Assembly: GCA_027023805.1 (NCBI GenBank)
Contig: JALVUF010000034.1
Span: forward strand, 1-64,000
Direction of reading: 5' to 3'
Length of the DNA stretch: 64,000 bases
DNA from: Helicobacteraceae bacterium
Lineage (GTDB): Bacteria > Campylobacterota > Campylobacteria > Campylobacterales > Sulfurimonadaceae
Numbering within the stretch: the first letter of the stretch is position 1; each line of letters starts with the position of its first letter. Both the position numbers and the translations under genes were made by a program. This document shows, in pieces, positions 30,042-35,514 of the stretch. The notes under the pieces were generated by a model. The model saw only the letters and a program-made list of their open reading frames with translations, searched no databases and was not told where the DNA came from.

Positions 30042-30464
30042 ATGCAAAGACCGCAAGCCATTGATGAAGAGTACTATTACGAAGAGGGAAGAGCTATCAT
30101 TAGCGAGACAGACCTCAAAGGTAGGATAACTTTTGCAAACCGTAAATTTTGTGAAATCGCGGCATACACAAAAGAGGAGTTAATAGGGCAGCCCCACAGC
30201 ATAATCAGGCATCCGGATATGCCCAAATCCGCCTTTAAGCAGATGTGGGAAACCATACAAGCGGGTCAAATCTGGCATGGATTAGTTAAAAACCTAAGAA
30301 AAGATGGACTGTACTATTGGGTTGATACGACTATTGAGCCTGGATATGATAAAAATGGTCATATCACTGGATATATCGCAGCACGCAAACCGGCAAGCCG
30401 TAAAAATATCCAAGAGGTCGAAATTGCATATAAAAGGATGAGAGAAGATGAACAGCAAAGGTAG
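30042..30464 (+). CDS. Stand-alone PAS-domain sensory protein (Aer/CetB-like)
   Basis: ETDLKGRITFANRKFCEIAAYTKEELIGQPHSIIRHPDMPKSAFKQMW...; 140 aa, no output domain. Confidence 0.85.
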   Translation: MQRPQAIDEEYYYEEGRAIISETDLKGRITFANRKFCEIAAYTKEELIGQPHSIIRHPDMPKSAFKQMWETIQAGQIWHGLVKNLRKDGLYYWVDTTIEPGYDKNGHITGYIAARKPASRKNIQEVEIAYKRMREDEQQR

Positions 30465-30467
30465 TGT

Positions 30468-31877
30468 ATGTTAATTTATAATCATAAATTTGAATTTATC
30501 GGCATTGATAAAAAAGATTTAAACAAGCTCGGCTTTAAAACATTTGCGAATCTTCAGAGCACTTGTAATGACTTTGCTGATTTGTTTATAAAAAAACCCG
30601 GCTATATTCACAACTTTAAAAATTTAAAGTGGATTTTATACATACTCAATTCCGATATTCAAGAAGCCAAAGCAATACTTAATGTAAACGGAACAACTTT
30701 TATGACAAATCTTGTTATAGATACTATCTATATGAAAGACAGTCCTGATGAAGAATCATATATCATTATGTTGCAAAATCTACATCAAACCAACATCTCC
30801 CCCGAGCCGTTAGCGCAGATGGACAAAGATACTATCTCTACAAAAGATACAATTCATCACGAACAACCGCCGACTGAAGCTGTTGTTGAGCCAAAAATAC
30901 TTAATGACAACAATGCACTGGATAACCTCGATACACAAACTACTCTTAAGCCTGAAAACATAGATAATCATACACAAAAAAGCCCGATGCTTGGTGATTA
31001 CTTATCACAATCTAAACCGGCTTCAGGTAACCAAATCAATCAATATTTATATAATCCTAAAGTAGCAGCTGATGAACTGGGTCTTCCTATTGATCTGATA
31101 GAGGAGTTTATAGGAGATTTCATACAGCAGGCATATGATTTTAAAGATGGCTTATACAGTGCTGTTGATAATGAAGATCATGAAACGCTTAAGAATTTAT
31201 CTCATAAATTAAAAGGGGTAGCCGCTAACCTTCGCATAGAGGATGCTTTTGAAGCTTTACGTATCATCAATACCTCAACAGATACAACGGAAATACAATC
31301 AAATCTTGATATTTTCTATTCTATCATTAGTAAGCTGGACAAAAAAGAACAACAAGAAAAAATAGCTCAAGATATCACAACACCTAAAAAAGCACCGGTA
31401 GAAAAAGATTCTAAATCAATTGATGATGATATATATACAAACTTGTTACAAGATGAAGATTTAGCACCTGCAACTGGGGATAAAACGGCGAAACAAACAG
31501 AGCCGCCACCGAAAATACAAATAGATAAAGAGCCCATAAATACACAAAGCTTATCACCAAAACCTCAAGTTGGTATGGTGTTAAACTATGATAAACAAAA
31601 AATTGTGAATGAACTTGGATTAGAAGAAGAGATTATTGATACCTTGTTGCATGAGTACAAAATACAACTTACTTCATTTGTGCAAGAAGCCAAGCAGGCA
31701 ATGCAATCAAATAATGTCAAACAGGTACGCCGACTTGCCCTAAATATAAAAGGAACAAGCGATAACCTTCGCCTATCGCAAATCTCAGCTCTTCTTGAAC
31801 AATTAATGTTTACGCATAAGCCGCAAGAGATAACCGATACAATTAAAGCTTTACAGCAGTATTTAACACAGATTTAA
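30468..31877 (+). CDS. Tandem Hpt-domain protein
   Basis: Two similar C-terminal modules: LKNLSHKLKGVAANLRI (Hpt with His) and VRRLALNIKGTSDNLRL (His replaced by Leu). Confidence 0.8.
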   Translation: MLIYNHKFEFIGIDKKDLNKLGFKTFANLQSTCNDFADLFIKKPGYIHNFKNLKWILYILNSDIQEAKAILNVNGTTFMTNLVIDTIYMKDSPDEESYIIMLQNLHQTNISPEPLAQMDKDTISTKDTIHHEQPPTEAVVEPKILNDNNALDNLDTQTTLKPENIDNHTQKSPMLGDYLSQSKPASGNQINQYLYNPKVAADELGLPIDLIEEFIGDFIQQAYDFKDGLYSAVDNEDHETLKNLSHKLKGVAANLRIEDAFEALRIINTSTDTTEIQSNLDIFYSIISKLDKKEQQEKIAQDITTPKKAPVEKDSKSIDDDIYTNLLQDEDLAPATGDKTAKQTEPPPKIQIDKEPINTQSLSPKPQVGMVLNYDKQKIVNELGLEEEIIDTLLHEYKIQLTSFVQEAKQAMQSNNVKQVRRLALNIKGTSDNLRLSQISALLEQLMFTHKPQEITDTIKALQQYLTQI

Positions 31878-31892
31878 AAAAGGACGATACAA

Positions 31893-34800
31893 ATGCAAAT
31901 AGGTTTAAGAAATAAATTAAGAGTAATCAGTCTGATTCCAATCATCATCCTTTTACTCGTAGCATCTTTTTATGTATATACATCATACAATAAATATAAA
32001 AGTGTAGAAAAATTACAGGTACAGTTAAAGCAAAATGTCTATTTTAGTCAGCTAGCACACGAAATATCACATGAGCGGGGACTAAGTATCTTGTATGCGG
32101 CAGACAAGTCTGCTGTAACTTTAAAGAAATTAAATAAAACAAGAGATATAGTCAATCATAGCATCGCAAAGTTTGAAGCATATGCAAATACTTTACAACA
32201 ATTAAATTATATCTCTAAAACAGAGGTTAATCAACGACTAGGCAGCATTTCTAAAATCTTGCAAAGCCTTATCATGCAGCGTCAGCGTATTAACAAGCAT
32301 ACTGCTAGTTTTGATAATATTTTTTATGGTCCATACAGCAAAGCCTTGTCGTATCTGTTAAATCAGACCAAATCCTTGGCAAATCTGCATATAGATGAAG
32401 AGATTGGTACAATGTCAGGAGCATACATAGGTTTTGTCAGAGCGCAGACATATACATCAAATGAGCGCGATTTCGTATCTAACATATTGGCTCGTCATCT
32501 GCTTATGAGTCAAGCTATGATGGGACATTGGCTTACATATATCGACAAAGATGATGCTCTGAATTTTGATAGTATCGGCAATAAGAAAATTTATAACAGG
32601 CTATACCGTATATTTGACAATAAGAACACTATTAATCTTTTCAATAATATTAATAGAAATAGACTAGCTATAACATTTGCGGCATCTACCGGTAAATACT
32701 CCGTACCTGTAAATATGTGGTTTGGCATGTTAACTCAAAAGGAAAATATTATAGCCAATGCTCAAGCAGTTATACTTCAAGCTATGAGTACAAAAAGTGT
32801 GTTAATCAAGCAAGAAGCACTTAGAATTTTATTTATCTCAATTGCTATATGGATTATCGCTATACTCTTAACATTGTTAGCTTTTTTTGTCGCCCGTGAT
32901 ATTACAAGAAATATTAAAAATCTTGAGTCTGTTTTAAAGCGTGTTGCAAAAGATACACAGCACAGTGAAGATGATATCAATATCAACCTTGATACATCAG
33001 CAGGCACCTCCAGAGCATATGAACTCCTGGAGAGCATCATTGAACAGACACGTAAAGATAAAGAATTTGCACTAGAAGCCAACGAAGCCAAATCAATGTT
33101 TTTAGCTAATATGTCACATGAGATTCGAACACCACTCAACGGCATCGTAGGTTTTACGGAACTCTTGCGAGATACACCTTTACAAGATGAGCAGCGTGAA
33201 TTTATTGAGATTATTGAAAAATCATCTGAAAATCTATTAGAAATCATCAACAACATACTTGATTTATCAAAAATTGAAAGCAATAAAATCGAAATCGAAG
33301 AGATAGTTTTCAATCCGGTAAAAGAGTTTGACAATGCCGTTGAAGTTTACTCAGTCAGGGCATCTGATAAGCACATAAGTCTTGGTTGCTATATAGACCC
33401 TAGCTTTGAATCGCCTTTAAAAGGAGATCCGACCAAAATTAAAGAGGTGATTATAAATCTCCTCTCAAATGCCATCAAGTTTACAAACACCGGCGGAGCA
33501 ATAAACGTAAATATCAAACGTATGCCTGCTGAGCAATCAACAAAAGCAAAAATACTCTTTGAAGTAGAAGATAACGGCATAGGTGTAACAAGTGAGCAAA
33601 AAGCTCGTATTTTTGAAGCTTTTTCACAAGCTGACACATCTATTACGCGTAAATACGGTGGTACAGGTTTAGGGCTTACAATCTCAAGCAGATTTGTTGA
33701 GTTAATGGGAGGAAAACTACAACTAGAAAGTGAACCAGGAAAGGGAACTAAATTTTTCTTTGTTCTTGAACTAGAGGAGATACAGACATTAAACGATTCA
33801 GATAAAGGCAAATACTCATCATTTCAAGCCCTTGTGCTTGATTTGACATCTAAAACAAAAAAACAAGGTATATTTTTAAAAAACTACCTTGATTTTTACG
33901 GGGTCAAATGTATTGAATTTAATACATTTGAGCAAGGCAGCGCTCTGCTAAAAAAAGAACAATATGATTTTATGTTTATCGACTATGACTTTATAAATGA
34001 TAAAGAATTAAAAGATTATTGCAGCTTAAATCAAAATGTTGTATTACTAGTAAAATCATACTACAAAAAAACAATAGATTCACTAAACTTAAAAATCTTT
34101 AAAACTATATATGAGCCACTGACAGGCACGAAGCTTAAAACAGTTTTAGAAAATTATCAACCAACAATCAAAAGAACAGGCAATATACCTTTAGGTCATA
34201 CCAAAAAATTTGATAAAGCAAAATCAAAATTCAATGCTAAAGCACTTGTAGCCGAAGATAATATTATTAATCAAAAATTGATAAAAAAGACATTAGAGGA
34301 CTTAGGGCTACATGTAGAACTTGCAAATAACGGTCTTGAGGCGTTTCAAAAACGCAAAAGCGAGCACTTTGATATTATATTTATGGATATACAAATGCCG
34401 GTATTAGATGGCGTGGAGGCGACACAAGAGATATTGGATTATGAAGAAGATACAGATGCCACCCATGTGCCTATTGTTGCATTGACCGCAAATGCTCTAA
34501 AAGGGGACAGAGAAAGATTTTTAAAAGAGGGACTGGATGAATACACTACAAAACCATTGGTTCGTGATGAAATCATCTCAATTTTAAATCATTTTTTGGG
34601 AGATTTAATTATAGATATAGATGATTTACCAAAACAAATATCTGATGAAAAAGAAGATGAAACCGCTAAAGGACAAGGTCAAGACACAAAACCAACCAGT
34701 GTTATATCGCAGCATCATGAACTAAAAACCCAACCAATATTAAATACCAAGTCTGAGCAAAGTTTAGACGGTGACAAGCGGGCAGTAGATATTTTATTGG

Positions 34801-35126
34801 TAAAGAAAAATCCACTAGAGACAACGCTATTTGCAAAACTTTTAGACACCCTCGGGTTTAGTTACGAGACTGCGTCTAATACAAAAGATATTTTTACAAA
34901 ATTAGGTACGTCAAAGTACAAGCTGCTTCTTCTTGATAAAGAGCTCGATAAACTGGATCTAGAAAAACTACGACAAGAATTTGAACAAAATAATCTTTCG
35001 ACTAAAATTATAGTATTTATTGATCCGTCTGATATCCAGTCAGATGTTACAGATGCGGATGAGGTAGTTCAAAATATTATCAATAAAGATCTATTGCGAT
35101 TAGTGATAGAAAAATTTCTAAAATAG
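31893..35126 (+). CDS. Hybrid sensor histidine kinase (NIT-like sensor, HisKA, HATPase, three receiver-like domains)
   Basis: Periplasmic ISHERGLSILYAADKS region, NMSHEIRTPLNGIVGF, HATPase NAIKF/DNGIGV/GTGLGL, canonical REC FMDIQMPVLDG. Confidence 0.9.
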   Translation: MQIGLRNKLRVISLIPIIILLLVASFYVYTSYNKYKSVEKLQVQLKQNVYFSQLAHEISHERGLSILYAADKSAVTLKKLNKTRDIVNHSIAKFEAYANTLQQLNYISKTEVNQRLGSISKILQSLIMQRQRINKHTASFDNIFYGPYSKALSYLLNQTKSLANLHIDEEIGTMSGAYIGFVRAQTYTSNERDFVSNILARHLLMSQAMMGHWLTYIDKDDALNFDSIGNKKIYNRLYRIFDNKNTINLFNNINRNRLAITFAASTGKYSVPVNMWFGMLTQKENIIANAQAVILQAMSTKSVLIKQEALRILFISIAIWIIAILLTLLAFFVARDITRNIKNLESVLKRVAKDTQHSEDDININLDTSAGTSRAYELLESIIEQTRKDKEFALEANEAKSMFLANMSHEIRTPLNGIVGFTELLRDTPLQDEQREFIEIIEKSSENLLEIINNILDLSKIESNKIEIEEIVFNPVKEFDNAVEVYSVRASDKHISLGCYIDPSFESPLKGDPTKIKEVIINLLSNAIKFTNTGGAINVNIKRMPAEQSTKAKILFEVEDNGIGVTSEQKARIFEAFSQADTSITRKYGGTGLGLTISSRFVELMGGKLQLESEPGKGTKFFFVLELEEIQTLNDSDKGKYSSFQALVLDLTSKTKKQGIFLKNYLDFYGVKCIEFNTFEQGSALLKKEQYDFMFIDYDFINDKELKDYCSLNQNVVLLVKSYYKKTIDSLNLKIFKTIYEPLTGTKLKTVLENYQPTIKRTGNIPLGHTKKFDKAKSKFNAKALVAEDNIINQKLIKKTLEDLGLHVELANNGLEAFQKRKSEHFDIIFMDIQMPVLDGVEATQEILDYEEDTDATHVPIVALTANALKGDRERFLKEGLDEYTTKPLVRDEIISILNHFLGDLIIDIDDLPKQISDEKEDETAKGQGQDTKPTSVISQHHELKTQPILNTKSEQSLDGDKRAVDILLVKKNPLETTLFAKLLDTLGFSYETASNTKDIFTKLGTSKYKLLLLDKELDKLDLEKLRQEFEQNNLSTKIIVFIDPSDIQSDVTDADEVVQNIINKDLLRLVIEKFLK

Positions 35127-35136
35127 GGATCAATGA

Positions 35137-35514
35137 ATGCAGCAAAAACAACTAAATATTTTAGCAGTTGATGATGACTTGATAAATCTAAAATTATTAA
35201 AATCAATGTTAATGAAAAATGAGCATGTACGCCATGTTATTGAAGCTAAAAACGGAGCGGATGCAATAGAGATACTTAAACAAAATAGTGATATCGATCT
35301 AATTTTGCTAGATATTATTATGCCTGTTATGGGCGGCATAGAGATGCTACGTATTATCCGAGCAGACGAGAATCTTAGCCAGTTACCGATTATAGTTTTA
35401 ACAACGGATGAAACTAAAAAAACAGAGGCGCTTGAGAATGGCGCAAATGGATTTTTAATGAAACCTATACGAATACATGATTTAAATGAACAAATCCAAC
35501 AGTTAATACTTTAA
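35137..35514 (+). CDS. CheY-like single-domain response regulator
   Basis: ILAVDDDLINLKLLK...LILLDIIMPVMGG...LTTDE...MKPI. Confidence 0.93.
   Translation: MQQKQLNILAVDDDLINLKLLKSMLMKNEHVRHVIEAKNGADAIEILKQNSDIDLILLDIIMPVMGGIEMLRIIRADENLSQLPIIVLTTDETKKTEALENGANGFLMKPIRIHDLNEQIQQLIL

Follow-up and report, generated by a model that had tools for sequence, protein, structure and literature searches.

The window analyzed here, 64,000 nucleotides from the start of contig JALVUF010000034.1 of a Helicobacteraceae bacterium, encodes a 469-aa protein whose C-terminal Hpt-like module (module 2) lacks the phospho-accepting histidine. Our analyses support module 2 as a true pseudo-Hpt that cannot carry phosphate. 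Among related genomes it disappears with the neighboring NIT hybrid kinase or with the REC3 domain of that kinase, and the active Hpt of the same protein (module 1) can stay. On balance, we favor the view that module 2 serves to dock the protein on the adjacent NIT hybrid kinase independently of phosphorylation, probably by binding REC3.

Gene cluster and organization of the 469-aa protein

Four signaling genes lie on the forward strand of the window, spaced by 3, 15, and 10 bp. The first (30,042 to 30,464) codes for a 140-aa protein with a single PAS domain (Pfam PAS_3, 60.9 bits) and is followed by the gene for the 469-aa protein (30,468 to 31,877), by that for a 1,077-aa hybrid kinase to which Pfam assigns the architecture NIT-HisKA-HATPase-REC1-REC2-REC3 (31,893 to 35,126), and by that for a 125-aa stand-alone canonical receiver (35,137 to 35,514; Pfam Response_reg, 87.7 bits). 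Most relatives in the family share the order uvrC, PAS, 469-aa Hpt protein, NIT hybrid kinase, receiver, lon; this synteny also backs the assignment of the receiver gene and, family-wide, that of the PAS gene.

The 469-aa protein combines a conserved N-terminal domain, an active Hpt, and a pseudo-Hpt. The N-terminal domain (aa 1-108, 30,468 to 30,791), which we labeled NPAS, is strongly conserved among orthologues, with Y-N, G-I-D, DFADLF, PGYIHNF, and W kept across the order. Sequence searches with this domain returned no Pfam or PDB match, and it appears PAS-like by eye only. Its homologues occur throughout the order, and in a class-level sample the matches were restricted to the order. Module 1, a catalytic Hpt (SHKLKGVAANLR), spans approximately aa 192-296 (31,041 to 31,355), scores above the Pfam Hpt cut-off, and carries its phospho-acceptor at His246 (codon CAT, 31,203 to 31,205). 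Module 2 spans aa 372-469 (31,581 to 31,874), and its phospho-His position is occupied by Leu425 (codon CTA, 31,740 to 31,742), in one common reading frame with codon 246.

Module 2 is predicted to adopt the Hpt fold

The first-pass annotation had aligned the two C-terminal modules and read the histidine of the first as leucine in the second. Profile-profile comparison bore out both points, aligning the modules over 97 columns with 99.6% probability (E 3.7e-24) and pairing the columns of His246 and Leu425. Against the Pfam Hpt family (PF01627), module 2 of the window reached 22.2-22.5 bits for a cut-off of 24.6, and a match at E ≤ 0.01 was obtained for 30 of 56 module-2 orthologues (best E 3.9e-10). 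In a profile search of the PDB, HptB (7c1i) and Ypd1-type chains likewise aligned with their phospho-His on the Leu425 column.

An AlphaFold2 model of module 2, built from a two-sequence alignment of window sequences only with module 1 as the second row, reached a pLDDT of 89.6 and a pTM of 0.79. It contains helices at model residues 12-19, 23-49, 53-69, 73-84, and 88-104, and Leu425 (model residue 61) falls within the third of them. When the model was compared with the PDB using Foldseek, the leading matches were mostly Hpt proteins (HptB, ArcB, BarA, ShpA, and Ypd1), with probability 1.00 and TM up to 0.78; the E-values were weak (0.02-0.5), which is to be expected of a helical bundle this small. 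Module 2 is thus predicted to fold as an Hpt helical bundle, and the model and its matches speak against the non-Hpt fold that the first-pass annotation had named as the outcome fatal to its reading. The Hpt domains of ArcB, BarA, and HptB (PDB 1a0b, 3iqt, and 7c1i) share this predicted fold, but all three carry the catalytic histidine.

The acceptor histidine is lost and the surrounding surface is conserved

Within the same GTDB family, the HxLKGVAANLR motif of module 1 was invariant and its histidine present in 83 of 83 orthologues, whereas none of 81 module-2 orthologues had a histidine at the Leu425 column. Leucine itself is not conserved at this position, where we observed an entropy of 3.2 bits (I20, L14, T10, S8, F7, A5, V4, R4, and others). 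Around this almost free column, the motif K-G-x-S-[DE]-N-x-R is kept (K428, G429, S431, D/E432, N433, and R435); in the window it reads KGTSDNLR (aa 428-435, 31,749 to 31,772), with K found in 78, G in 76, N in 79, and R in 75 of the 81 orthologues. Since the histidine is missing from every orthologue and this motif persists, the acceptor has been lost and the surface around it is still under selection. Conservation of module 2 clusters at this former active-site surface and does not extend throughout the bundle; overall, module 2 diverges faster than module 1, with a mean column identity of 44% versus 69%.

Several trivial or catalytic explanations were considered and discarded. The orthologues (0/81 versus 83/83 His) rule out an assembly or sequencing error, or chance, at Leu425, and recent decay in the window genome is ruled out by the order-wide distribution of the His-less module. 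A substitute acceptor, the other outcome that the first-pass annotation had held against itself, did not emerge: no histidine is conserved elsewhere in module 2 among the 81 orthologues, the best columns reaching 16/81 at aa 437 and 14/81 at aa 418. A Ser/Thr acceptor as in ChpA-type Spt/Tpt modules was rejected because the Leu425 column is mainly aliphatic. With Leu425 in the window and no histidine in any of the 81 orthologues, module 2 is not a catalytic Hpt.

The hybrid kinase carries one canonical receiver and two degenerate ones

Of the three receiver-like domains of the kinase, only REC2 (34,233 to 34,607) is canonical, with a Response_reg score of 82 bits and a complete active site (the EDN motif with E788 and D789, together with Asp832, Thr865, and Lys887) in 70 of 70 orthologues. 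REC1 (33,816 to 34,202) gave no significant Pfam receiver match; its acidic pair is lost and the beta5 lysine is replaced by Glu741 (69/70), while Asp697 is kept in 70/70. REC3 (34,776 to 35,123) scored 26.3 bits against the Pfam receiver, under the cut-off, and carries Lys971-Lys972 where the acidic pair would be (67/70 and 54/70, respectively), with Asp1015 retained in 70/70. In a PDB profile search, this Lys-Lys pair aligned with the Asp-Asp pair of RcsC, and a model of REC3, though of low confidence (pLDDT 60), matches receiver folds. Both REC1 and REC3 are degenerate order-wide, the REC3 motif being KKS..E. Judged by their sequences, REC1 and REC3 therefore qualify as pseudo-receivers, each lacking at least one of the five residues (DD, D, T, and K) that make up a receiver active site. 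One kinase of family f10 (L162:6197-10183) has four receiver-like domains, namely two canonical receivers in addition to REC1 and REC3.

In CheY, replacing the second acidic residue by lysine (D13K) imitates the activated state in the absence of phosphate. By analogy, one may speculate that the lysines of REC3 could bring about a comparable phosphate-free activation.

The His-less module is found across the order

We extended the survey to 40 further loci from order-level homologues, scoring only readable genes. A His-less Hpt-like module was present in every readable family sampled; across the order it occurs in about ten families, with different arrangements. In the family of the window genome (f1), the active module precedes the pseudo module; in f4 this order is reversed; and f18 proteins have one or two active modules, usually with a pseudo module. 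In at least four families (f20, f7, f22, and f10), the pseudo module was the sole Hpt-like module detected in the protein: Pfam revealed no second Hpt in the scanned f20, f7, and f22 proteins, nor did our custom module profile in the f10 protein. The role of the pseudo-Hpt consequently requires no Hpt in cis. The loss of the histidine is ancient and common to every relative with an intact copy of the module. In a tree of the modules, 31 of 32 His-containing tips fell into a single group together with two non-His tips (weak support, 0.455), suggesting that the His and His-less modules may have diverged before the families did.

In f4, f18, and some f20 loci (e.g., L131:6436-6831), the Hpt protein and kinase genes are separated by one that codes for a small Sel1/TPR-like protein, apparently with a signal peptide; this gene is absent in the family of the window. 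We considered whether this gap gene of other families hides an active Hpt and rejected the idea, its product being small, repeat-like, and apparently equipped with a signal peptide.

Pseudo-Hpt and REC3 are kept and lost together

Of 228 genomes of the family, 139 were of good quality, with completeness of 90% or more and contamination of 5% or less. Profiles for the pseudo-Hpt and for REC3 both matched in 133 of these and neither matched in the other six, with no discordant genome. The pseudo-Hpt profile also matches active Hpt domains at E values of approximately 1e-17 to 1e-21; matches in this range were checked at readable loci and excluded because active Hpt domains score there. Among the lower-quality genomes, about nine had REC3 and no pseudo-Hpt match and several showed the reverse, all of them in fragmented or incomplete assemblies. 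Seeming absences of REC3 or the pseudo-Hpt at loci L053, L086, L111, and L113 correspond to contig-end cuts and were left out of the counts, and one further locus (L090, genome G062) is disrupted by frameshifts.

The six genomes lacking both domains are G018, G094, G118, G025, G036, and G415. No gene of the system was recognized in two of them (G018 and G118), and the contig of G036 ends within the gene. In G025 and G415, a short protein made of the N-terminal domain and the active Hpt is encoded directly before lon, and the kinase, receiver, and PAS genes are gone. The complete genome G094 no longer has the Hpt gene, and REC2 is the last domain of its kinase. Two additional genomes were informative. 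G423 resembles G025 and G415, but its module 1 is also without the histidine (SRELKD versus SHKLKG; L189:4851-5879). In G410, an 84%-complete MAG, the short protein is found with a kinase core and REC2 in a separate frame, the kinase frame being broken; REC3, the pseudo-Hpt, and the receiver (RR) and PAS genes are absent. On a uvrC and nadB tree, the lineages with losses occupy separate branches, each beside intact relatives.

These losses are not equally informative. Those in G025, G415, and G423 tie the pseudo-Hpt to the kinase and not to REC3, because the whole kinase is gone. Only in G410 and G094 is REC3 separated from the rest of the kinase, and both genomes retain the kinase core and REC1 while missing REC3. 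The leftover active Hpt presumably serves other kinases.

Two side observations concern Hpt proteins in these genomes. In the remaining Hpt protein of G423, neither Hpt site offers a phospho-acceptor. G036 encodes a second such protein (L190:1575-2708), with a degenerate receiver-like N-terminus and an Hpt module close to module 1, which is possibly related to L002 of the window's own genome.

A proposed docking role and its alternatives

In the reading that we favor, the adjacent NIT hybrid kinase would have the 469-aa protein as its Hpt partner, which agrees with how closely the four genes are spaced. In this protein, module 1 would relay phosphate from REC2 of the kinase through His246 to a receiver, and module 2 would keep the Hpt protein, with its conserved N-terminal domain and active Hpt, on the NIT kinase, probably via the dead REC3. 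Such docking could enrich the active Hpt locally near REC2, or deliver the N-terminal domain to the kinase. In families whose protein is without an active Hpt, only the docking part would remain, and what is recruited there may be the N-terminal domain and not a phosphotransfer function. We infer the binding of the pseudo-Hpt to REC3, REC3 as its site, and the tethering effect from the patterns of conservation and loss. Retention of the glycine at H+4 is no clean proof of docking, since in Ypd1 this glycine serves phosphotransfer geometry more than affinity (PMC6341664).

Covariation was examined using partial correlations of domain distances in 60 genomes, where the pseudo-Hpt covaried most closely with REC3 (0.29, bootstrap CI 0.08-0.43), compared with -0.06 for REC1 and about 0 for the kinase core. 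A rank-based version placed REC2 (0.27) above REC3 (0.16). As the outcome depends on the metric, we rejected covariation as decisive proof for REC3 and take it as suggestive only.

The rank-based result would fit a pseudo-Hpt that acts as a built-in titrator, competing with the active Hpt for binding to the active REC2 or to the stand-alone receiver. Plant AHP6, for which such a mechanism has been proposed, offers a precedent (PMC3572949), and the retained Hpt-like motif near the former histidine also agrees with this reading. We regard this as rather unlikely, given that G410 keeps REC2 and the active Hpt and yet is without the pseudo-Hpt and REC3, that G094 keeps REC2 and has lost REC3 along with the Hpt gene, and that the f20, f7, f22, and f10 proteins have no active Hpt to compete against.

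Some helical bundles of phosphotransfer proteins dimerize, as does Spo0B. Module 2 could by this precedent be a homodimerization domain, or a structural spacer without a specific partner, and its fast evolution is compatible with either. Conservation concentrated at the former active-site surface and the vanishing of module 2 with the kinase, although the rest of the protein persists, make this unlikely in our opinion. The suggestion of the first-pass annotation that module 2 may be a pseudo-Hpt is supported by the His loss and the predicted fold; the dimerization or titration role that it proposed gained no specific support.

In G025, G415, and G423, the pseudo-Hpt went missing along with the entire kinase, which does not pinpoint the domain bound; the pseudo-Hpt could instead dock on HisKA/HATPase or REC1 and act allosterically, in the manner of the pseudo-receivers that regulate ShkA. 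However, the kinase core and REC1 are kept in G094 and G410, where REC3 is nevertheless missing, and the pseudo-Hpt covaries with neither, which makes such docking elsewhere quite improbable. Finally, a decaying, functionless duplicate would explain the lost histidine and the faster divergence, but we consider it highly improbable given that K, G, N, and R of the retained motif are each found in 75-79 of 81 orthologues, that module 2 occurs in all 133 good family genomes keeping REC3 and across the order, and that several families retain it without module 1; nor, among the good genomes of the family, did module 2 turn out to be missing from many that keep their kinase intact.

Comparison with known systems and significance

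His-less Hpt domains are already known and account for 0.9% of annotated bacterial Hpt domains (90/10,312; PMC12632262). ChpA of Pseudomonas aeruginosa and CheA3 of Azospirillum contain modules that, like module 2, have the Hpt fold, are without the phospho-His, and stand in tandem with active Hpt modules; their function is described there as still to be established (PMC10782961). Those modules belong to CheA-type chemosensory kinases, whereas module 2 is part of a separate Hpt protein beside an NIT hybrid kinase, is distributed order-wide, and co-occurs with a specific pseudo-receiver. In Arabidopsis, AHP6 is a pseudo-HPt acting as an inhibitor, and in AHP6 and other plant pseudo-HPts the conserved histidine is mutated and selection keeps the protein (PMC3572949), as for module 2. 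However, AHP6 inhibits a hormone phosphorelay as a free protein with a single domain, while module 2 is part of a multi-domain bacterial protein and, in the family of the window, usually adjoins an active Hpt. The arrangement of REC1 and REC2 recalls ShkA of Caulobacter, a hybrid kinase with a pseudo-receiver ahead of the active receiver (PMC12632262, PMC7010744); unlike ShkA, the kinase of the window has a second pseudo-receiver, REC3, after the active one, and this one is apparently linked to the pseudo-Hpt.

In the open-access full texts that we searched, we found no bacterial pseudo-Hpt with an assigned role. The case described here is ancient and conserved; its genes form a compact cluster, a candidate partner can be named, and some lineages carry natural deletions. 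What is new is the suggestion that the likely partner of a pseudo-Hpt is REC3 of the neighboring kinase. More tentatively, a dead Hpt:receiver pair may form an order-wide, phosphorylation-independent clamp that sets which kinase is served, acting beside a working pair or, in some families, as a dead pair alone.
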